64,000 nt of DNA, taken from IMG/VR virus record IMGVR_UViG_3300032050_000111, positions 1 through 64,000 of that record; one strand, written 5' to 3'. Positions 7,184-61,948 of this stretch are shown here, piece after piece. This DNA is from a virus. The position numbers were made by a program, and so were the translations under genes. Position 1 is the first letter of the stretch. The number at the start of each line of letters is the position of its first letter. The notes beneath the pieces are model-generated. The model had not been told where the DNA came from and did no database searches. It saw only the letters and a program-made list of their open reading frames with translations.

Positions 7184-7550
7184 AGTTCTTCCCCTTCAAT
7201 GCTTGTTCGATAGCGCGGGCCGCGCCTTGCAACGTCGAGTGGTTGTCGCAAATCAAGTCGAAGTCAGCATCCGTCAGCCCTCGCCACTCGCGGCGGGGTG
7301 AGTGGACAAGCATCTTCGTTGCTTCTGCGAGTCGGCCCGGTCCGTTGTGCAACGACAGATAGTCAAGCGCCGCCGATGCACTGCGCCGCGTTACAAGCTC
7401 CTCCTGCTCCTGCACCACCACCGGCTCCATCAGCGCGGCGCGGAGGGCTTCAATAGCGCCGCGAGCCCTCACAGTCGCGCCAAACTGCGCGTAGTGCTCC
7501 AATGCCTCCAGCGCCTGCCGCATCACGGCACGATCATTCATTCCGCCCAT
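7176..7550 (-). CDS. Early phage protein, paralogue of the PPRREW family
   Basis: A 124-residue protein that shares its plan with the next gene: an alanine-rich N-terminal helix (MRQALEALEHYAQFG, IEALRAALMEP), then SPRREWRGLTDADFDLIC and a C-terminal helix. It lacks the PLYTxPP modules. The start at 7550 has GGAG 6 bases upstream; a second in-frame ATG follows three codons later. It overlaps the upstream gene by 13 bases. Function unknown. Confidence 0.65.
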   Translation of the reverse strand: MGGMNDRAVMRQALEALEHYAQFGATVRARGAIEALRAALMEPVVVQEQEELVTRRSASAALDYLSLHNGPGRLAEATKMLVHSPRREWRGLTDADFDLICDNHSTLQGAARAIEQALKGKNYE

Positions 7551-7870
7551 GTCCGACTCCTATAGGTTGCTATCCAGCGCGACTGCTCCAGTCGGCGGGA
7601 CGTTACGAGCACGCCGTCCTGCACCAGCTTGTTCATCAGCCGGCCCGCAGTGCTTTTAGGCACGCCTGTGTCCTCGACAACGTCGGCCACGGTGACATCG
7701 CACCCAGCCTGCATGACGTACTCACGGACCACGGCCTCGGCATCGCCGTAAGACCGGTCGACTTTGAGAGCCTGCACTTGCAGCGGGCGGTGCGCCCGGG
7801 ATGGCAACGATTCTAGCCGACGGTGCGCCTGCTGGGCCTTCGCCGGGTCAGGGATCAGAGGGTCAGTCAT
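7538..7870 (-). CDS. Winged-helix DNA-binding protein
   Basis: A 110-residue protein. The C-terminal half reads VTVADVVEDTGVPKSTAGRLMNKLVQDGVL, a winged helix-turn-helix like those of MarR- or IclR-type regulators, followed by a basic wing (VTSRRLEQSRW). The N-terminal half is basic and probably helical. It may regulate the early region or the host. The ATG at 7870 has an AGGAAGG site; an upstream in-frame ATG at 7897 lies inside the previous gene. Confidence 0.65.
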   Translation of the reverse strand: MTDPLIPDPAKAQQAHRRLESLPSRAHRPLQVQALKVDRSYGDAEAVVREYVMQAGCDVTVADVVEDTGVPKSTAGRLMNKLVQDGVLVTSRRLEQSRWIATYRSRTWAE

Positions 7871-8069
7871 CGCGACCTTCCTCTTTCGTGCGCACATAGG
7901 CGGAGAGCCTCGTGATGGCGGTCTGGTAGTACTTCACCATCTGCTGGCTGTATTCTGTCTGTGATTGGTACACGAGCAGCTGACGCTGCGCGTCTTCAAG
8001 CTGGCGCTGTGCAATGGTCTGCGCCGTCGGCTTGACGAAGAGTGCTTTGATCTGGTTGGGGATCTGCAT
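7863..8069 (-). CDS. Small coiled-coil phage protein
   Basis: A 68-residue protein: MQIPNQIKALFVKPTAQTIA, then QRQLEDAQRQLLVYQSQTEY. It is helical and glutamine-rich, with a likely coiled coil. Similar short proteins are common in phage early regions and have no assigned role. It is the first gene after the 8109-8130 terminator. Confidence 0.65.
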   Translation of the reverse strand: MQIPNQIKALFVKPTAQTIAQRQLEDAQRQLLVYQSQTEYSQQMVKYYQTAITRLSAYVRTKEEGRDD

Positions 8070-11133: not shown

Positions 11134-11151
11134 GCCGCCCCGAAGGGCGGC
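11134..11151. repeat. Junction stem-loop GCCGCCC-CGAA-GGGCGGC
   Basis: A 7-bp perfect stem between the stop at 11172 and the start at 11108. The same arms recur at 12418-12435 and 12806-12823 with different loops. Confidence 0.6.
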
Positions 11152-11688: not shown

Positions 11689-11709
11689 ACTGTGACAACG
11701 TGTCACAGT
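11689..11709. repeat. GACA-N3-TGTC palindrome, class A (ACTGTGACA-ACG-TGTCACAGT)
   Basis: 9-bp perfect arms with a 3-base spacer. The TGA stop of the gene at 11703-12092 lies inside the right arm. Same class as 13950-13968 and 16786-16804. Confidence 0.75.
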
Positions 11710-12092
11710 CTGAAGTCGCCGTCGAGGATGGTGTCCATCCTGCCTGCTTGTACGAAGAACGCTGCCATGTCTGCACGTTCATACGTAGTGTAGCCTAGCA
11801 GTGTGAGTGCTGCAAGCATGCCTTGCAAGTAGGCTTCGCCCTGTGCTGTGTAGGCTTTGCTTGTGGGCTTGAGCTTGAACTCGCGGGCGCGCATCTTCCA
11901 TACCTCGGCGAGTTTGCGTTCAAGGTCTGGCAGTCGCTGCACTGCGGCAAGCTGGGTGAGTATCGCTTCGTACTGCTGCGCGTGCTCGTTGGGCGCCGTG
12001 GCTTTAAGCTGCCGCTTCACAAGCTCTTGCAGCGTGCTGATGGTCTGCTCGTCAAGCAGGCGCATGTACAGGGTGGTGTTGTCGGTCGTCAT
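11703..12092 (-). CDS. Hypothetical early protein
   Basis: A 129-residue protein, largely helical (LLDEQTISTLQELVKRQL, YEAILTQLAAVQRLPDLERKL), with a short aromatic C-terminal part. No motif is recognised. The ATG at 12092 has a GGGAG site 7 bases before it. The stop codon is formed by the class A palindrome, so gene end and palindrome have travelled together. Confidence 0.55.
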   Translation of the reverse strand: MTTDNTTLYMRLLDEQTISTLQELVKRQLKATAPNEHAQQYEAILTQLAAVQRLPDLERKLAEVWKMRAREFKLKPTSKAYTAQGEAYLQGMLAALTLLGYTTYERADMAAFFVQAGRMDTILDGDFRL

Positions 12093-12094
12093 GG

Positions 12095-12391
12095 TCAAGC
12101 TCCCTTCTTGGTTGCATTACGGTCAAGGAAAATCAGCCAATCTTTTTCGCTCAGGCGACGCACAAAGAGCCTGCGCCCTTTGACAACGCGTGCGTGTGCG
12201 TTGATCGCCTTGATCACAGGCGACTCCACAGCGCCGTTGCTGTTCACCCGATCTTGGGACGGGTCTACGCGTACAATAACGAACGCCTGCGCTTCGAGCA
12301 GCGCGAACATCGCGTCGTTGTCGACTACTTGCTTCGTCGGAGGGTCGATGGGCGTCAACGTGTACGCCCACTCCGGTATGTTGTGCTTCAT
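12095..12391 (-). CDS. Hypothetical early protein
   Basis: A 98-residue protein: WAYTLTPIDPPTKQ, FALLEAQAFVIVRVDPSQDR, HARVVKGRRLFVRRLSEKDW. It is a basic, mixed alpha/beta protein without a recognised motif. It is followed within a few bases by the next gene and preceded by a class C stem-loop (12418-12435). Confidence 0.55.
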   Translation of the reverse strand: MKHNIPEWAYTLTPIDPPTKQVVDNDAMFALLEAQAFVIVRVDPSQDRVNSNGAVESPVIKAINAHARVVKGRRLFVRRLSEKDWLIFLDRNATKKGA

Positions 12392-12417
12392 GGTGATAGC
12401 TCCTGTGGTGAGAGAGT

Positions 12418-12435
12418 GCCGCCCCGGAGGGCGGC
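12418..12435. repeat. Junction stem-loop GCCGCCC-CGGA-GGGCGGC
   Basis: 7-bp arms identical to those at 11134-11151 and 12806-12823. It lies directly between the stop at 12442 and the ribosome site for the next gene. Confidence 0.6.
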
Positions 12436-12441
12436 GGTTGG

Positions 12442-12780
12442 TTAGCTGGCAAAGAGTGCGTCTGGTACTTCGACCTCGTCGCCCAGCTTGCTAGCGACGT
12501 AGCACCGCATGGCTGCGATCAGGGGGGTGTGGCCTTCGTATGCGGGGCCATCTTTGTGCGCCATCCAGCAGTCACGTTCGGGACTTTGCTGGATCGTGAT
12601 CCCCTCCCGCTCGATGAGCGGCCCGCCACGAGGCCAGTCATCCGAGTAGCGCGGACTGGACAAGACACCCCTGTTCAGAAAGTCCTGATACCAACTCTTG
12701 TGCCCGGCTACAGATGCTTCGCATTGGTCTACCGCCCAGTCGAGCGTGGGGCCAATGAGGTCGGTCGTCTTGATCTTCAT
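12442..12780 (-). CDS. DUF2591 phage protein
   Basis: A 112-residue protein. TLDWAVDQCE near the start, PRYSDDWPRGGPLIEREGI in the middle and TPLIAAMRCYVASKLGDEV near the end are the three conserved blocks of DUF2591, a common phage early-region family of unknown function. The start at 12780 follows the shared GGAGTTACATC leader. Length is usual for the family. Confidence 0.85.
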   Translation of the reverse strand: MKIKTTDLIGPTLDWAVDQCEASVAGHKSWYQDFLNRGVLSSPRYSDDWPRGGPLIEREGITIQQSPERDCWMAHKDGPAYEGHTPLIAAMRCYVASKLGDEVEVPDALFAS

Positions 12781-12805
12781 GATGTAACTCCTGTGGTGAG
12801 AGAGT

Positions 12806-12823
12806 GCCGCCCGTGTGGGCGGC
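12806..12823. repeat. Junction stem-loop GCCGCCC-GTGT-GGGCGGC
   Basis: Third copy of the class C arms, between the stop at 12831 and the DUF2591 start. The loop differs from the other copies while the arms are identical. Confidence 0.6.
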
Positions 12824-12830
12824 GGGGTGG

Positions 12831-13097
12831 TTAACGGGTAGCGAGCTTCGCACGAATGCGAGAGACGATCTCGGGGAGTTGGCATTCGTAGGCTTGGAAG
12901 ACGATGCCTCCGCCGAATTGTTTGTTGTGATATCTGCGGCCGCCGAGCGCGTTGGCGGCTTTCACAACGCGTGCGTACCTATCGCTGAGCGTTAGCGTGT
13001 AGTCTGGCGCGGGCTCAAGGTCGAGGAAATGGCACACGTAACGGGGGTTGCCGTTCACGTCACTGTTGATGCGGGTCCAGTCAATATTCGTGGTCAT
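12831..13097 (-). CDS. Hypothetical early protein
   Basis: An 88-residue protein: RYVCHFLDLEPAPDYTLTLS, ARVVKAANALGGRRYHNKQFG, IVFQAYECQLPEIVSRIR. It reads like a small alpha/beta fold found in several phages, without known function. The start at 13097 has the shared leader; an ORF start at 13166 would cover the class B palindrome. Confidence 0.6.
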   Translation of the reverse strand: MTTNIDWTRINSDVNGNPRYVCHFLDLEPAPDYTLTLSDRYARVVKAANALGGRRYHNKQFGGGIVFQAYECQLPEIVSRIRAKLATR

Positions 13098-13120
13098 GCT
13101 GTAACTCCTGTGGTGGAAAG

Positions 13121-13157
13121 CGGGACAACTTGTTACCGGGACAAGATGTCCCGGTAA
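13121..13157. repeat. GACA-N3-TGTC palindromes, class B (TTACCGGGACA-AGA-TGTCCCGGTAA)
   Basis: 11-bp perfect arms at 13133-13143 and 13147-13157. A degraded extra half-site (CGGGACA-ACT-TGT) precedes it at 13121. It lies between the stop at 13167 and the next start at 13097. Confidence 0.75.
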
Positions 13158-13166
13158 TCCCGGCAT

Positions 13167-13922
13167 TCAGTTGGCTGCGATGTTGATGACCCGGCGCTTG
13201 TGGCCCGGGGCGTGGTCGAGGATGACGATGCTGCGCGCCGTGGGGTGAGCCCCCGAGCAAAGCCGGCAGTCAGCACACTGCGTGCGCTTGCCCGCCTCGG
13301 CAGAGGCAGGACAGCTGATCTCGATTGGTGAGCGCGTGGGCTCGGTGGCTACGCGAAACGTACGCCACCCGCGTGCGTGGGCAAGCCGCTGCTCCTCGGG
13401 ACTGTCGACACTGGCCATGAACAGCTTGCGCGCGCGGGGCGATGCGTCGAGCCACTGATGCGTGTAGCCCGTGTGCCCACGAGCGTAGGTGATCAGCGCC
13501 CGCCAGATGTGCAGGGGCGCAGCCAGCGGGTCACCGTATGTGCCGAACCGTACCATCCGAGCAATGATGAGCAGCGCGACTTCGAGCGCCGACGCACGAA
13601 CGTAGGACCCGCGCAAGTATGCGCGAAACACGGCTGCGACTGAGCGCCCCGTGTCGACATAGCAGGGCGGCTCACCTGTGAGCTTGGCTAGGATGGGCCT
13701 GTGCATGCACTGCCCGCAGATGCTGGCGTCGGCCCCTGTGCGTACTGCCTCGACCGGATGCATGTCGGTGCGGATGATGAATGTCTGCACCATAGCGCCG
13801 GTCTTGGCGTTGGATGATTTGCTGTGTACGCCGGTCACGATCACTGCTATGGGCGCCCCGTCAATCTCTGACGGGCCTTCGTAGATGATGTAGCCGGCGG
13901 GCTTGCGTGCTTTGTTTGCCAT
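13167..13922 (-). CDS. Conserved phage protein with YEGPSEIDG start and CGQC motif
   Basis: A 251-residue protein. GYIIYEGPSEIDGAPIAVI, the KTGAMVQTFIIR stretch and ICGQCMHRP define a family I have seen in phages and plasmids with no established function. Further cysteines (CPASAEAG, CADCRLCSGAH) suggest a zinc site. The helical centre (YVRASALEVALLIIARM) and HQWLDASPRARKLFMASVDS segments are conserved-looking. The start at 13922 follows GGAGCTTTCATC. A class A palindrome lies just before it. Confidence 0.65.
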   Translation of the reverse strand: MANKARKPAGYIIYEGPSEIDGAPIAVIVTGVHSKSSNAKTGAMVQTFIIRTDMHPVEAVRTGADASICGQCMHRPILAKLTGEPPCYVDTGRSVAAVFRAYLRGSYVRASALEVALLIIARMVRFGTYGDPLAAPLHIWRALITYARGHTGYTHQWLDASPRARKLFMASVDSPEEQRLAHARGWRTFRVATEPTRSPIEISCPASAEAGKRTQCADCRLCSGAHPTARSIVILDHAPGHKRRVINIAAN

Positions 13923-13949
13923 GATGAAAGCTCCTAGTGGGAGTGGTAA

Positions 13950-13968
13950 CTGTGACACCGTGTCACAG
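13950..13968. repeat. GACA-N3-TGTC palindrome, class A (CTGTGACA-CCG-TGTCACAG)
   Basis: 8-bp arms with a CCG spacer, five bases beyond the TAA of the gene at 13974-14687. Confidence 0.75.
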
Positions 13969-13973
13969 ATAGG

Positions 13974-14687
13974 TTAGCGCCGGGTCGGTTGGCGCGGGGG
14001 CTCCTTCGCCCGGTCCAGAAGCAGCGGCGGGCGTCGGGGAAAGAAGGCGTAGAGAGAGTGGGCGGTGTAGATGCCCCTCAGGCTTGCGAGATCGCGCTCC
14101 AAGGCGTCCGTGAGGGTGGCCCGCCACCCTCCTACCTTGGCAGGCAGTCCGGGCGTCAGGCGGGCTCTGAGCAGGGCCGCATCGCGGATGCGCCGCAACA
14201 GGACGAGGTAGGCATCGAGCCAATCGATCAGCGCCGGGGGTACCCCCGGACGGCCGCGCGCCGCGTCGTGCCGGAACTTGGAGCGCCTCGATGACATGAT
14301 CCGATCCTCGGCACGGAGGATGGCGAGTTCGTCTTTCCACGCGTCGATGCGTTGCTGCACCCGTGCTTGGCTGAGAAGCGCTCGGGTGAGATTGTGCTTG
14401 CGTGTGAGATCGTGCTCGATGAGGTGTGCGCGTCGGATGCCAGTGCGGTGAGCGCTCTCTATCAAGGGTCGGGGTTGCTGGGTCGGGCGGTACGAACCGC
14501 GTGGATGACATGCGCGGCATATCTCCTCGTAGATGTAGACAGCTTGTCGGCCTGCTGCGCGCAGCTGATCGAGCGTGTCCTGATTAAGGCGTCGCGCTAG
14601 CTCGTCTCCCCATAGCTTGCGACGAAAAGCTATGCGGTTCTTTGCCTTGAGACAAAGGGGGCAGATGCGTGTTGGATCTGTGGTCAA
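13974..14687 (-). CDS. Hypothetical protein with N-terminal zinc finger
   Basis: A 237-residue, very basic protein (many Arg). CPLCLKAKNRIAFRRKLW and a later CRACHP provide two CxxC pairs, suggesting a zinc-binding N-terminus. The rest is helical with LARRLNQDTLDQLRAAGRQ, HDLTRKHNLTRALL and ALIDWLDAYLVLLRRIRDAA. DNA or RNA binding is plausible but not shown. The start is a TTG at 14687, with GGAG about 8 bases upstream; no ATG is available near the cysteines. Confidence 0.6.
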   Translation of the reverse strand: MTTDPTRICPLCLKAKNRIAFRRKLWGDELARRLNQDTLDQLRAAGRQAVYIYEEICRACHPRGSYRPTQQPRPLIESAHRTGIRRAHLIEHDLTRKHNLTRALLSQARVQQRIDAWKDELAILRAEDRIMSSRRSKFRHDAARGRPGVPPALIDWLDAYLVLLRRIRDAALLRARLTPGLPAKVGGWRATLTDALERDLASLRGIYTAHSLYAFFPRRPPLLLDRAKEPPRQPTRR

Positions 14688-14809
14688 AATGTGATCTCCG
14701 ATTACTGTTTAACGTGAGACACGAGGTCCAAGCCATCGAAAAAGCGCAGAGGAATCAAAGCCTTAGGCTGAATTCGGGCGAGATGCTGAAAAGGTCGGAC
14801 GACAAAATG

Positions 14810-14977
14810 TCAGGGATGAAGCCATCGAAAGAGCCCAATAAAATCAACGACTTGAGGGTCGATTGGCAGGAATCCACATGCGGCGGGGGTACACACCCCT
14901 ATGGCGCCGCCGAACGACCAACTTTTCAGGGCCATTGTCAAAAAGTTTACAAGACTTTGGGAGGACGGCGGCGCCAT
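14810..14977 (-). CDS. Possible 55-residue ORF
   Basis: A leftward ORF: MAPPSSQSLVNFLTMALKSW, then SFGGAIGV and CGFLPIDPQVVDFIGLFRWL. The composition is protein-like, with hydrophobic and aromatic residues well spaced. Against it: AAAGG abuts the ATG with no spacing, the gap to neighbours is large, and the opposite strand is also open. The region could equally be a conserved RNA. Confidence 0.3.
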   Translation of the reverse strand: MAPPSSQSLVNFLTMALKSWSFGGAIGVCTPAACGFLPIDPQVVDFIGLFRWLHP

Positions 14978-14985
14978 CCTTTCTA

Positions 14986-15016
14986 TACTACTCTAAATAG
15001 ATAGGATAGAGTAGTA
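14986..15016. repeat. 10-bp inverted repeat TACTACTCTA / TAGAGTAGTA
   Basis: Arms at 14986-14995 and 15007-15016 are perfect inverse complements with an 11-base AT-rich loop. It is AT-rich against a GC-rich background, which suits an operator, a hairpin or a melting site. Confidence 0.6.
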
Positions 15017-15145
15017 GTAGTGGGCAGGCAGGTTATTGAAATGCAAGCGCTTTTTCGAGGGGTTGGGGGAGGGGGCGCATGTTGTGAAAGGGGAGCAGGG
15101 ATGTAAAGCCGTTTAAGACTTTACAAACTCTTTACAAACGTTGGA

Positions 15146-15168
15146 CAAGCCCGCACGAGGCGGGCTTG
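15146..15168 (-). terminator. Stem-loop after the gene at 15182, weak terminator candidate
   Basis: CAAGCCCGC (15146-15154) pairs with GCGGGCTTG (15160-15168) around ACGAG. It lies just past the stop of the leftward gene. No T-run follows, so it may be an mRNA-stabilising hairpin rather than a true terminator. Confidence 0.5.
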
Positions 15169-15181
15169 ACATTTGACAAAG

Positions 15182-15640
15182 TCAGTCGCAGACGATCCGC
15201 TTGACTTCGCGCTTGACAACTTCCTCCGTTGTCTCAACTACCTCAATGCGACAGTTTTTGCTGTCGCTCTTGACATAGGCGCAGACCATCATGGTGATCG
15301 CGAGCCCATCGCATTCTTTGCGGAATGAAAAGTCGCGATTGGGCCTATCGAAGGTGTAGTCGCTGGTGTGCGTGCACGCGAAGCCTTCATCTTCGAGTGC
15401 TGCAAGAAGACGCACGAGTTTGGCGGACTTGAACCCCGAAAGGTTGTGCATGTACACCGTCACATGCACTGACTGGGAGTGCGGACTGACGCTGACGTAC
15501 GGCTGTACTTTGCGGGGCAGCACCTTGTGCAGCACCGTGCGCAGCGCCATGCTGTCCATGGACTTGGTCCACTTGAGCGCGGCTTCGACATCGTTGCGGG
15601 CGCTGGTCAGAGCACGGGTGATTTCGTCACGAAGGGACAT
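15182..15640 (-). CDS. Hypothetical early protein
   Basis: A 152-residue protein. The N-terminus is helical (LRDEITRALTSARNDVEAAL); the rest alternates strands and helices (VSVSPHSQSVHVTVYMHNL, LVRLLAALEDEGF, IEVVETTEEVVKREVKRI). No family is recognised. The start at 15640 follows GGAGTCTC; the longer in-frame ORF to 15718 runs across the class B palindrome and is unlikely. Confidence 0.55.
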   Translation of the reverse strand: MSLRDEITRALTSARNDVEAALKWTKSMDSMALRTVLHKVLPRKVQPYVSVSPHSQSVHVTVYMHNLSGFKSAKLVRLLAALEDEGFACTHTSDYTFDRPNRDFSFRKECDGLAITMMVCAYVKSDSKNCRIEVVETTEEVVKREVKRIVCD

Positions 15641-15657
15641 GAGAGACTCCTGAAAGG

Positions 15658-15682
15658 TTGCCGGGACAAAGTGTCCCGGCAA
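15658..15682. repeat. GACA-N3-TGTC palindrome, class B (TTGCCGGGACA-AAG-TGTCCCGGCAA)
   Basis: 11-bp perfect arms, just upstream of the ribosome site for the gene starting at 15640. Confidence 0.8.
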
Positions 15683-15735
15683 GGTGCAGTGTCGCACCGC
15701 ACAGCCCACGCAGTGCATAGGCTGTACGTTGGACG

Positions 15736-15846
15736 CTAGAACAAAGCCATGCCCATCCAGAGCGTGGCGAACATGAGGATGAAGACCGCGAGGGCCTCCG
15801 CGTAGAGCAGTGCCGTCTTGATGCGACGGCGGGTCTTGAAGGACAT
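15736..15846 (-). CDS. 36-residue single-pass membrane protein
   Basis: A tiny ORF: MSFKTRRRIKTALLYAEA then LAVFILMFATLWMGMALF. A basic N-terminus followed by one strongly hydrophobic helix predicts a membrane protein with its N-terminus in the cytoplasm. The GGAG site with the usual AGCTTTCACGTG leader precedes the ATG at 15846. Role unknown; a membrane-acting early peptide is plausible. Confidence 0.55.
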   Translation of the reverse strand: MSFKTRRRIKTALLYAEALAVFILMFATLWMGMALF

Positions 15847-15860
15847 CACGTGAAAGCTCC

Positions 15861-16208
15861 TCAGTAGTTGTACCAGATGCTGGTACGGATCAAGACCTTG
15901 CGCCCCTTGCGGCGCAAGACGCGGGCGCTGTGGGTAGCGCACCCGCAGCCGTCGTACTCGTGTTGACAGCGCGACCCTGACAATGTCGCGACTAGCGCAC
16001 GTGTCGCTTCGTCTCGCTCTTTGCGGGACAGCCTCGGGCCGAGCGTGGCCCACATCAGGGACACGTCGCCTGTATCGTAGTCGATGCGCTCTTCGACCAC
16101 ACGCGCAGGCGTGAGGCGCACGTTGAAGTCGCGCCCCCATGTGTCGAGGTGTCCCCACCCTGCGCGGTAGCGGTGGGTCAGACGGGCAGCGACAGTGGTT
16201 TGGATCAT
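15861..16208 (-). CDS. Hypothetical basic protein with cysteine cluster
   Basis: A 115-residue protein. It has TVAARLTHRYRAGWGHLDTW, VVEERIDYDTGDVSLMWATL and a cluster CQHEYDGCGC that may hold a metal. The C-terminus is basic (RVLRRKGRKVLIRTSIW). No family recognised. The start at 16208 follows GGAGCTTTCAC. It is separated from the previous gene by a class B palindrome. Confidence 0.55.
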   Translation of the reverse strand: MIQTTVAARLTHRYRAGWGHLDTWGRDFNVRLTPARVVEERIDYDTGDVSLMWATLGPRLSRKERDEATRALVATLSGSRCQHEYDGCGCATHSARVLRRKGRKVLIRTSIWYNY

Positions 16209-16229
16209 GTGAAAGCTCCTGAAAGATTG

Positions 16230-16248
16230 CCGGGACATTCTGTCCCGG
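16230..16248. repeat. GACA-N3-TGTC palindrome, class B (CCGGGACA-TTC-TGTCCCGG)
   Basis: 8-bp arms directly abutting the TAA stop (16249-16251) of the gene at 16249-16761. Confidence 0.75.
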
Positions 16249-16761
16249 TTAGGCGAACTCGCGGGCAATGATCACCCGCGCTTGACGGATGCGCTCCGCC
16301 GTGTACTGCGCGTTTGCACGCGCCTCGGAGAGGCGCAGCGTAGCCACGACGGTTGTCAAATGGGGGAACATCACCTCCCATTTACCTTTCCCGCTCTGCC
16401 AGTACGACCAGCGCTCCTCGAACGATGCGCGGCTATGCATGTATGAGTCCAGCGTCTCGTACCAGCGCAAGCGCTGGTCGGACGTTTCGTACCTCAGCAT
16501 TTCGTGCGGCCCGCCGGCCAGCACTTTCATCGCGGCGTGGATGCCGCGATCATAGAGGAGGGCGCAGCGCTGCCCCTCTACTTCGAGGTGGCCGTCGGGT
16601 GTGAGCCCGACCCACTGGTCTGGATTGGTGGACGCGTGCTCGTCCACCCAATACACCCCGCAATCGAGGAAGTACTCCACATCGGAGTACTTCGCGACCT
16701 CGGCCTGCATGGCCGACGCCTTGGCGCGCTGCGCCGGGGTGAGTTTGAAGCGTACGTACAT
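16249..16761 (-). CDS. Hypothetical early protein
   Basis: A 170-residue protein. The N-terminus (YVRFKLTPAQRAKASAMQ) leads into VEYFLDCGVYWVDEHAS, a central LLYDRGIHAAMKVLAGGPHE and a long helical C-terminus (LRLSEARANAQYTAERIRQA). No family recognised. The start at 16761 has GGAGCTTTCACA upstream. It is bordered by class A and class B palindromes. Confidence 0.55.
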   Translation of the reverse strand: MYVRFKLTPAQRAKASAMQAEVAKYSDVEYFLDCGVYWVDEHASTNPDQWVGLTPDGHLEVEGQRCALLYDRGIHAAMKVLAGGPHEMLRYETSDQRLRWYETLDSYMHSRASFEERWSYWQSGKGKWEVMFPHLTTVVATLRLSEARANAQYTAERIRQARVIIAREFA

Positions 16762-16785
16762 TGTGAAAGCTCCTAGTGGTGGTAA

Positions 16786-16804
16786 CTGTGACAGAGTGTC
16801 ACAG
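16786..16804. repeat. GACA-N3-TGTC palindrome, class A (CTGTGACA-GAG-TGTCACAG)
   Basis: 8-bp arms. The TGA of the small ORF at 16799-16876 is part of the right arm, as at 11703. Confidence 0.7.
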
Positions 16805-16876
16805 CAGCAGCATGGCAGCGGACGCGAGCCCGCTGATGATGAGCGCCGCGATGGCGGCGAAGTCGTCTTGGTTCAT
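16799..16876 (-). CDS. 25-residue hydrophobic peptide (possible)
   Basis: The ORF reads MNQDDFAAIAALIISGLASA followed by AMLLL: a short polar start and one hydrophobic helix. It fits between two palindromes, and its stop is embedded in one, like the larger gene at 11703. There is no strong ribosome site, so it is only possible. Confidence 0.35.
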   Translation of the reverse strand: MNQDDFAAIAALIISGLASAAMLLL

Positions 16877-16951
16877 GGGGGTTTTGAAGCCTTGAAGTGT
16901 GGCGGAACAGGGCGACCCCACAGCGTAGAGTCACGCTGCCCTCGGAAGAAA

Positions 16952-16976
16952 TTGCCGGGACACGATGTCCCGGCAA
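16952..16976. repeat. GACA-N3-TGTC palindrome, class B (TTGCCGGGACA-CGA-TGTCCCGGCAA)
   Basis: 11-bp perfect arms, 16 bases beyond the stop of the gene at 16992-17465. The arms match those at 15658-15682; only the spacer differs. Confidence 0.8.
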
Positions 16977-16991
16977 CCGCTGTGTCCAATA

Positions 16992-17465
16992 TCAAGCCGC
17001 ACGCGCCTCGGCGATAGCCGTGGCGAGAAGCCGCGAGGCTTCTTCGTACTCACCACAAGCCTTGACCAGCTTAGCGGCAATCTTCGCGATGTGATCGGGC
17101 ACCTCGATGGGTTCCTTTTCTTCCTTTTTCTTCTGAGACTGCCCGATCAGGGCTTTGATCCAGCGCTCGTGGGCCTTTTTAGCGGCCGCGCCGGCCTTGT
17201 CTTCCGGCCAGCAGAGCGCGCCGGCCGTCGCGCCACGGGTGCCGACCGTGAGGACCACGCCTTTGGCGGCGGCAAAGCCTCTCAGCGTCTTTGCCTTGAC
17301 ATCGGCAAAGGCGGCACCGCGCAACTCGCGGCGAGCCGCGAGCAGGCGCATGGCCTGCTCGGAACCATCGTTCACCATCACGGTGAACGACACGGCATCG
17401 TCCCATTTCATGGTCGCGACGGCCGCGACGGAAGCGTGGGCGAGAGTGGTAGTGAATTGCGTCAT
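16992..17465 (-). CDS. First gene of the leftward early operon, function unknown
   Basis: A 157-residue protein. The N-terminal half is compact (TTTLAHASVAAVATMKWDDA, VNDGSEQAMRLLAARRELRG), then VKAKTLRGFAAAKGVVLTVG, a lysine/glutamate linker (QKKKEEKEP) and a C-terminal helix (AKLVKACGEYEEASRLLATA). As the first gene after the control region it is probably expressed immediately. No family recognised. The ATG at 17465 was chosen; the ORF to 17552 reads through the class B palindrome. Confidence 0.6.
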   Translation of the reverse strand: MTQFTTTLAHASVAAVATMKWDDAVSFTVMVNDGSEQAMRLLAARRELRGAAFADVKAKTLRGFAAAKGVVLTVGTRGATAGALCWPEDKAGAAAKKAHERWIKALIGQSQKKKEEKEPIEVPDHIAKIAAKLVKACGEYEEASRLLATAIAEARAA

Positions 17466-17487
17466 GAGAGCACCTATGCAAGGTTGT

Positions 17488-17504
17488 CGGGACATGTTGT
17501 CCCG
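17488..17504. repeat. GACA-N3-TGTC palindrome, class B (CGGGACA-TGT-TGTCCCG)
   Basis: 7-bp perfect arms in the leader of the first leftward gene. No gene ends here, so this copy cannot be explained only as a gene-end hairpin. Confidence 0.7.
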
Positions 17505-17674
17505 GTTAGTGGGCATCGACAGCCCCTGCTGCCGACATCTAAAGCTTAGCATGACCTCGTTTTGCCCCTAGATTCGCCCCCAAAACCCAGCCCTGCCAAC
17601 CCCACCCACCGGGGAGGCCCCGTGTGCAGCGATGACGTGGCGGCGTGGCGCAGACAGTGTTTCACAACCACGCT

Positions 17675-17718
17675 CCCCTATTTTGTAAAATTTGCCCTGT
17701 TGTTTTGTCCAAAGTCAA
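17675..17718. repeat. 44-bp direct repeat, copy 1
   Basis: It begins CCCCTATTTTGTAAAATTTG and ends TTTTGTCCAAAGTCAA. It matches copy 2 at 17757 with one mismatch in 44; the offset is 82 bp. Read leftward it starts TTGACT, a good -35 shape, and has AT-rich TTTTACAAAAT downstream, but no clear -10 at 17 bp. It is a promoter or repressor/activator site candidate. Confidence 0.75.
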
Positions 17719-17756
17719 GCCGCAGCCACACGCAGCCGCACGTGCACACACCCCAC

Positions 17757-17800
17757 CCCCTATTTTGTAAAATTTGCCCTGTTGTTTTGTCCAATGTCAA
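17757..17800. repeat. 44-bp direct repeat, copy 2
   Basis: Second copy of the repeat at 17675. Read leftward it begins with a perfect TTGACA -35 hexamer. The single mismatch between copies changes TTGACT to TTGACA, so the two copies may differ in promoter strength. Confidence 0.75.
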
Positions 17801-25499: not shown

Positions 25500-26411
25500 A
25501 TGGCAATTACCCGTGCCCAACTGCTGAAGGAACTCCTGCCGGGGCTTAACGCGCTGTTCGGTCTGGAGTACGCTCGCTACGGCGAGGAGCACAAGGAGAT
25601 CTACGAAACCGAGTCTTCGGAACGTAGCTTCGAGGAAGAGACCAAGCTGGCCGGTTTCGGTGCAGCGCCGGTCAAGGCCGAAGGCTCCGCGATCCAGTAC
25701 GACAACGCGCAGGAAGCGTGGACTGCTCGCTACAACCACGAGACCATCGCGCTCGGTTTCTCGATCACCGAGGAAGCTGTGGAGGACAACCTCTACGACA
25801 GCCTCAGTGCCCGGTACACCAAGGCGCTGGCCCGTGGTATGGCCTACACCAAGCAGGTCAAAGCGGCCAATCTGCTGAACCAAGGCTTCTCGTCTACCGT
25901 GGTCTACGGCGATGGTGTCAGCCTGTTCAGCACGGCCCACCCGCTCGTGTCCGGTGGCGTCAACAGCAATCGTCCTGCTACGGCGGCGGACCTGAACGAG
26001 ACTTCGCTCGAAGCGGCAGTCATTCAGATCGCGGCGTGGACGGACGAGAAGGGTCTGCTGATCGCTGCCAAGCCGAAGAAGCTGATCATCCCGCCGGCCC
26101 TGATGTTCGTCGCCACCCGACTGCTGGAAACCAACCTGCGCGTCGGCACCACGGACAACGACATCAACGCGCTGAAGAACAACGGGTCGATCCCCGGCGG
26201 CTACACGGTCAACCACTTCCTGACCGACAGCAATGCGTGGTTCCTCACCACGGACGTGCCTAACGGTATGAAGCACTTCGTCCGCACCAAGCTGTCTACC
26301 AGCATGGACGGCGATTTCGATACCGGCAATGTTCGCTACAAGGCCCGTGAGCGTTACAGCTTCGGCGTCAGCGATCCGCTGGGCATCTACGGCTCGCCCG
26401 GTTCGAGCTAA
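25500..26411 (+). CDS. Major capsid protein
   Basis: A 303-residue protein. It opens ITRAQLLKELLPGLNALFGL, has YARYGEEHKEIYETESSERS and FEEETKLAGFGAAPV, then a long alternating region with LFSTAHPLVSGG and a C-terminal FGVSDPLGIYGSPGSS. This resembles the Mu gpT-like branch of the HK97-fold coat proteins. Size, position after scaffold genes and the strong terminator behind it support a highly expressed coat protein. A good GAGGAG site precedes the start. Confidence 0.85.
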   Translation: MAITRAQLLKELLPGLNALFGLEYARYGEEHKEIYETESSERSFEEETKLAGFGAAPVKAEGSAIQYDNAQEAWTARYNHETIALGFSITEEAVEDNLYDSLSARYTKALARGMAYTKQVKAANLLNQGFSSTVVYGDGVSLFSTAHPLVSGGVNSNRPATAADLNETSLEAAVIQIAAWTDEKGLLIAAKPKKLIIPPALMFVATRLLETNLRVGTTDNDINALKNNGSIPGGYTVNHFLTDSNAWFLTTDVPNGMKHFVRTKLSTSMDGDFDTGNVRYKARERYSFGVSDPLGIYGSPGSS

Positions 26412-61657: not shown

Positions 61658-61948
61658 TCAGCCTTTTTGCTGAAACTCTCGCAGACTGAATTCTGTGCAT
61701 ATTGCTCTCCAAGCGTCCTGTTGCGTTTTAGCAGCCTGCATGCAGCGCACGAGCCGCTCCACGGCTGCTTTGTTTCGGGGGGTTACGTCGTTGCCGTTCA
61801 TCCAGTTGTACACCGTCTGACGCGTAGCGTGCGTGGCTTCGCAGAGCAGCGTGACCGGGATGTCGTGGTAGATGGCCCAGCGCCCGAGACGCACGCCCAA
61901 GCTCAAAGGCAGCGACTGTACCTTGTCGATGAAGTTCTGTCTGTACAT
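61658..61948 (-). CDS. Helix-turn-helix DNA-binding protein
   Basis: A 96-residue protein. VTLLCEATHATRQTVYNWMN is a helix-turn-helix of the Cro/C1 type (first helix, turn, recognition helix TVYNWM), then VTPRNKAAVERLVRCMQAA. It probably regulates the replication genes or the early/late switch. It sits between the primase and SSB genes. No strong ribosome site is visible before the ATG; a GC-rich stem-loop lies just upstream. Confidence 0.7.
   Translation of the reverse strand: MYRQNFIDKVQSLPLSLGVRLGRWAIYHDIPVTLLCEATHATRQTVYNWMNGNDVTPRNKAAVERLVRCMQAAKTQQDAWRAICTEFSLREFQQKG

Follow-up and report, generated by a model that had tools for sequence, protein, structure and literature searches.

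Private families of perfect DNA dyads at the early gene junctions of a phage clade, and a first-gene product as their candidate reader

Results and discussion

We analyzed 64 kb (hereafter the window) of the 65,626-base IMG/VR virus record IMGVR_UViG_3300032050_000111, in which an early operon reads leftward on the minus strand and eight perfect inverted repeats (dyads), all containing GACA-N3-TGTC, lie between its genes at 11.69-17.50 kb. An unbiased scan found that most contigs of the same virus clade carry a dyad family of their own, and two pairs of relatives and a chimera provide three natural comparisons, in each of which the operon's first gene changes or stays with the dyads. We therefore lean towards reading the dyads as operator-like sites for a dimeric phage protein, most likely the product of this first gene, which would regulate itself and act as a roadblock. 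Judging from these sequence comparisons, the first gene is probably that of a site-reading regulator not known before. The dyads, numbered in the direction of transcription, and the first gene are as follows.

Dyad 1, 17488..17504: CGGGACA-N3-TGTCCCG, 24 nt ahead of the ATG of the first gene, in whose leader it lies
First gene, 16992-17465, minus strand: opens the early operon, 157 amino acids, candidate for the cognate DNA-binding protein, with dyads 1 and 2 on either side
Dyad 2, 16952..16976: TTGCCGGGACA-N3-TGTCCCGGCAA, directly behind the first gene
Dyad 3, 16786..16804: CTGTGACA-N3-TGTCACAG, includes the TGA stop of a 25-amino-acid open reading frame (16799-16876, minus strand)
Dyad 4, 16230..16248: CCGGGACA-N3-TGTCCCGG, adjoins the TAA stop of gene 16249-16761
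Dyad 5, 15658..15682: TTGCCGGGACA-N3-TGTCCCGGCAA, about 20 nt ahead of the gene starting at 15640
Dyad 6, 13950..13968: CTGTGACA-N3-TGTCACAG, ahead of the phrog_2554 gene (13167-13922, minus strand)
Dyad 7, 13133..13157: TTACCGGGACA-N3-TGTCCCGGTAA, behind the phrog_2554 gene
Dyad 8, 11689..11709: ACTGTGACA-N3-TGTCACAGT, includes the TGA stop of gene 11703-12098

The eight dyads of the window

The pattern GACA-N3-TGTC occurs 13 times in the window, compared with 1.07 +/- 1.11 times in dinucleotide shuffles, none of which (0/100) reached 13. Eight of the 13 matches have perfect arms of 7-11 bp, while the other five, with arms of 4-5 bp, are probably background. An earlier sequence-only reading of this DNA had described five dyads of the form CGGGACA-N3-TGTCCCG and three of the form TGTGACA-N3-TGTCACA, and all eight were recovered at the places claimed, including the single copy in the first-gene leader; neither 17-bp form has a one-mismatch neighbor elsewhere in the 64 kb. 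The same reading had two of the dyads forming stop codons, which is true of the two TGTGACA-type copies that include a TGA, the CGGGACA-type copy at 16230 only abutting a TAA. The spacer, which had been called free, is so in sequence, but its length is fixed within a phage. Likewise, the placement of copies at gene ends is better put in terms of a minus-strand operon: the dyads mostly sit past the stop codon of one gene and ahead of the Shine-Dalgarno sequence of the next, in most cases 22-30 nt before the start codon. Coding sequence makes up 82.5% of the operon but only 13 of the 170 dyad bases, and none of 20,000 random placements overlaps genes as little. None of the eight was reported as terminator-like, that is, as a hairpin followed by a T run.

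Other repeats were noticed around the same operon. A second hairpin family, GCCGCCC-N4-GGGCGGC, lies upstream of ribosome-binding sites of this operon at 11134, 12418 and 12806. Upstream of the first gene, at about 17670-17800 (minus strand), a stretch of about 44 bp (TTGACWTTGGACAAAACAACAGGGCAAATTTTACAAAATAGGGG) occurs twice in near-identical form, and stretches resembling it are found at the corresponding place in the related contig L095.

Dyad families across the clade

The window and those related contigs that are full-length have terminase, portal, DNA polymerase, primase-helicase and other genes in common, and we therefore treat them as one virus clade (contigs are denoted below by L and G numbers). 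By terminase, its closest named relatives are the HTVC023P-type pelagiphages, phage DSL-LC04 and the Planktothrix phage Pag-Yong1 (39-44% identity). Searched for the Phage_integrase and Resolvase families, 12 long records gave no match to either, and so no sign of a tyrosine integrase or a resolvase-type recombinase, other routes of integration lying outside this search.

Nearly all phages of the clade with a readable early region have a dyad family of their own, the core and spacer length of which are uniform within a phage and different between phages. The families found include CGGGACA-N3, CGGGACA-N2, CCTAACA-N2, CTTACAA-N2, CTTACAG-N3 and -N4, CGTTACA-N3 and GTTATAA-N4, as well as GGGGTA-N4, AGATAG-N5, TTCGTAC-N1, GCAGACA-N3, GCGGACA-N3, GGGGAGA-N3, GGGGAAA-N2 and GGGTCA-N3; Pag-Yong1 carries 21 exact copies of GGTTCA-N3. 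The dyads of the window are retained in the near-identical contigs L001/L116 and L102, whereas L095 and L096 have CGGGACA where the window has TGTGACA. In L140-L142, whose terminase is 84% identical, homologous places, the first-gene leader among them, are occupied by CGGGACA with a spacer of 2 nt. The absence of dyads from the same junctions in relatives, which would have spoken against a function at these places, was not what we found: homologous junctions carry a dyad, often of another sequence.

Co-variation of the first gene with the dyads

The larger aligned blocks of G002 and G003 are mostly 84-94% identical, and the distance between the two phages is 0.03 for the adjacent terminase-small-like gene versus 0.89 for the first gene, which has been replaced. 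At their homologous junctions, TGTGACA-N3 in G002 corresponds to GAGACA-N2 in G003, with the flanks retained and the differences almost solely at the dyad. G003 retains one old-type TGTGACA-N3-TGTCACA (L160 8487-8503), its other dyads being GAGACA-N2. In the other group, G041 and G047 both carry GGGGAGA-N3 and have first genes that are 85% identical, whereas G048 carries GGGGAAA-N2 and an unrelated first gene, many of the neighboring genes still being alike; it was the comparison of G047 with G041 (same dyad) and with G048 (other dyad) that singled out the first gene. The first gene of L200 is chimeric, its N-terminal part being of the G041/G047 type (75-76/112 residues identical) and its C-terminal part of the G048 type (29/43), and L200 carries the G041-type dyad. 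As the dyads change all together when the first gene is swapped, the first-gene product is our candidate for the regulator.

In a partial Mantel test over 21 phages, dyad distance was correlated with first-gene distance given the terminase-small-like gene (r=0.42, p=0.0002), and the reverse test gave p=0.83. In addition, about 19 of the 24 first-gene homologs have a copy of the dyad of their phage on either side, and for G017 and G038 the copy upstream falls within the 5' portion of the first gene's coding sequence.

An iterated profile search joined the first genes of the clade into one highly divergent, fast-evolving family, which has no Pfam or PHROG match below E 0.05; two members that we tested, one of them the window gene, had no relatives in 50,697 phage records. 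The first gene of Pag-Yong1 was not joined to this family. The model of the G049 protein, built from 19 sequences with a predicted local distance difference test score (pLDDT) of 75, contains three helices, a short beta hairpin, a further helix and a 33-residue C-terminal helix, an arrangement compatible with a winged-helix domain followed by a dimerization helix. Winged-helix proteins of the MarR type recur among the best PDB fold matches, none of them significant. As a side observation, three direct repeats (CATAGCCTTTGGCTATTCACTATCGCGTCCCCGCAAC) lie behind the first gene in L132 (10690-10760).

DNA sites, RNA hairpins or linkers

Triloop messenger RNA (mRNA) hairpins had been among the three readings first offered for the dyads, and hairpins upstream of the Shine-Dalgarno sequences might serve in processing, in stabilization or as targets of an RNA-binding regulator. 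Every dyad does lie in a transcribed leader or an intergenic gap, the cores are perfectly paired, and some outer pairs change on both sides (TTACC/GGTAA versus TTGCC/GGCAA in the window, and in the L140 family). These compensatory changes, seen by eye, were gone when 226 copies from 28 families were pooled and arm positions 7-16 from the center were tested: no compensatory covariation was detected, the paired fraction being the same as for arms combined from different copies within one phage (z -2.6 to +1.5). In G017, for instance, the base beside the core is C or G on each side independently, and single mismatches, read in the mRNA sense, are about equally often G.U and C.A. Moreover, in families with a spacer of 0-2 nt the symmetric bases closest to the center are unable to pair in RNA and yet show complementarity in 157 out of 166 cases, a figure inflated by gathering the families with at most one mismatch in the 6+6 core. 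Pag-Yong1 has sites within genes, L021 has sites directly upstream of TTGACA-type promoters, and Rfam gave no match at the gathering threshold. Since arm covariation is lacking and the innermost symmetry is kept where an RNA loop is impossible, a symmetric DNA site appears to be the better reading, and we consider mRNA hairpins improbable. Hairpin promoters of the phage N4 type, considered as another possibility, do not fit spacers of 0-2 nt or sites inside genes. Less probable still is that the dyads serve as linkers for recombination, or as small mobile repeats, at the borders of exchangeable gene cassettes, with no dedicated binding protein. Cassettes do come and go, as L102 (3554-3600), when aligned with window 16208-16804, lacks precisely gene 16249-16761 plus one dyad, and recombination between comparable repeats has been reported in Cluster O mycobacteriophages (PMC4351075). 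Nevertheless, where junctions of two related phages are near-identical, the dyad core is essentially all that differs, a change in place rather than an insertion; this change is genome-wide and in concert, the spacer length is constant within a phage, and the first gene covaries with the dyads. Repressor sites spread through the operon, the remaining reading, is the best supported of the three in the form of symmetric sites for a putative dimeric DNA-binding protein, though with another partner than the helix-turn-helix (HTH) proteins proposed for it.

Evidence for a DNA site leaves the protein unnamed, and it is conceivable, if rather unlikely, that the dyads are read by another phage protein, either an early gene product or an HTH protein, the first gene being merely adjacent. 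Turnover between G002 and G003 extends to other early genes, and a small open reading frame (G047 25610-25873) is common to G041 and G047 with no match in G048. Neither of the two HTH proteins proposed as partners found support. The conserved XRE-like HTH protein of 96 amino acids (61658-61948, minus strand), encoded beside the primase-helicase, was found in all 24 helicase-bearing contigs searched and first looked promising in six phages, where a TRxT helix went with GACA and SRIS with TTACA. However, its HTH domains are identical in G041 and G048, the dyads of which differ, and it is therefore not the specificity determinant; we regard it as a core regulator. For the IclR/MarR-like HTH protein (7538-7897), BLAST found no relative in those other phages with dyads that were compared. 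Flanking by dyads in nearly every phage was seen for the first gene only, which again favors its product as the reader.

Several observations weigh against a first-gene regulator acting at these sites. No sigma-70-like promoter was found in the dyad region of the window and no dyad overlaps an obvious promoter. G016, G024, G045 and others yielded no dyad family, in some cases for want of the early region, and the first genes of L180 and L193 have no flanking dyads. The first genes of the G041/G047 type join the family weakly, the chimera L200 being a possible link. The first gene has no significant DNA-binding match by sequence or fold, and the model of the window protein is poor (pLDDT 60). 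The contigs of G002 and G003, which differ in other early genes as well, are both partial. Finally, the Mantel signal was weak with ranked distances (r=0.22, p=0.02; p=0.04 and 0.09 without close relatives), and Mantel tests on the N- and C-terminal parts of the first gene did not separate the determinant. As the rank signal is modest, we base the case chiefly on the natural comparisons and on the dyads that flank the first gene.

Proposed mechanism

We infer binding by the first-gene product, its roadblock action and a role in immunity from the arrangement and co-variation described above. As it accumulates, the first-gene protein would bind the dyad in its own leader and the one at each following gene junction. 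In the leader it would repress its own gene, and at the junctions the bound dyads would block RNA polymerase on the early operon, resulting in early shut-off. The protein may also silence a superinfecting phage with the same dyads, which would favor rapid joint divergence of protein and sites. Tentatively, and with more doubt than about the operator reading, we propose that this apparently non-integrating aquatic clade has a new family of small dimeric DNA-binding proteins with private dyad sets that switch at once, and uses them for immunity or exclusion in lytic phages.

Comparison with known systems

The nearest known logic to the one proposed here is that of the stoperator-repressor system of Cluster A mycobacteriophages (L5, Bxb1). 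Its sites are present in many copies, mostly intergenic and most not tied to promoters, and their consensus varies from one related phage to another in step with the repressor (PMC3029335, PMC6550527). The window dyads are likewise multiple, mostly intergenic, non-promoter sites, and those of the clade diverge in consensus between related phages. Stoperators, however, are 13-bp asymmetric sites oriented with transcription and bound by a monomeric HTH repressor in temperate phages, whereas the window has perfect dyads of 15-25 bp, and in the clade no integrase was detected, no HTH protein tracks the sites, and the dyads are linked to an unrelated first-gene protein.

In form, the nearest known sites are the unexplained dyads of Cluster O (Corndog), TGTTCGG-N3-CCGAACA, 17-bp sites for which a dimeric protein was proposed (PMC4351075). 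They share with ours the 7-3-7 layout, invariant arms, a free spacer sequence, the position of many copies in the gene gaps of a leftward operon and the lack of an integrase. They differ in half-site and in the orientation of the conserved bases, and their 34 copies are genome-wide with about one third in genes; their half-sites occur in none of the clade families found. The account of Cluster O mentions neither a cognate protein nor divergence from phage to phage, nor any connection with a first gene (PMC4351075). The SPBRE sites of SPbeta resemble the dyads in being repeated, intergenic and bound by one phage-encoded protein, MrpR, but the motif is 15 bp long and located at promoters, and MrpR has a tyrosine-recombinase fold and keeps lysogeny (PMC10516654). 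The ESAS elements of Cluster K mycobacteriophages are inverted repeats too, located directly ahead of gene starts and with a consensus that is specific to the subcluster, but they are imperfect 17-bp repeats with a spacer of 4-13 bp, tied to a 13-bp start-associated sequence (PMC3203893).

If the proposal is true, an abundant uncultured phage clade would offer a regulator-operator pair that is readable from sequence, and a natural series of specificity switches, in core, spacer length and protein together, for studying how operators are rewritten across a whole regulon. Stoperator-type control would then extend beyond temperate actinobacterial phages, and a DNA-binding family absent from the protein libraries searched would be added. 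Mutual exclusion among co-infecting phages would become predictable, and the regulator could determine which relatives can share a cell. The dyads of Cluster O mycobacteriophages would also gain a candidate explanation.

Other repeats in the clade

Two further kinds of repeats were seen in relatives of the window. G025 contains tandem repeats at 382-1822 with 12 copies of GGCACC-N3-GGTGCC, which are unrelated to its CCTAAC dyads and probably sit inside a gene. In the low-GC (guanine plus cytosine) relative G001 (L157-L159; seen in L120 at 1500-1960), a long noncoding run alternates between GGCTCGCTC and GGTTCTCTC.

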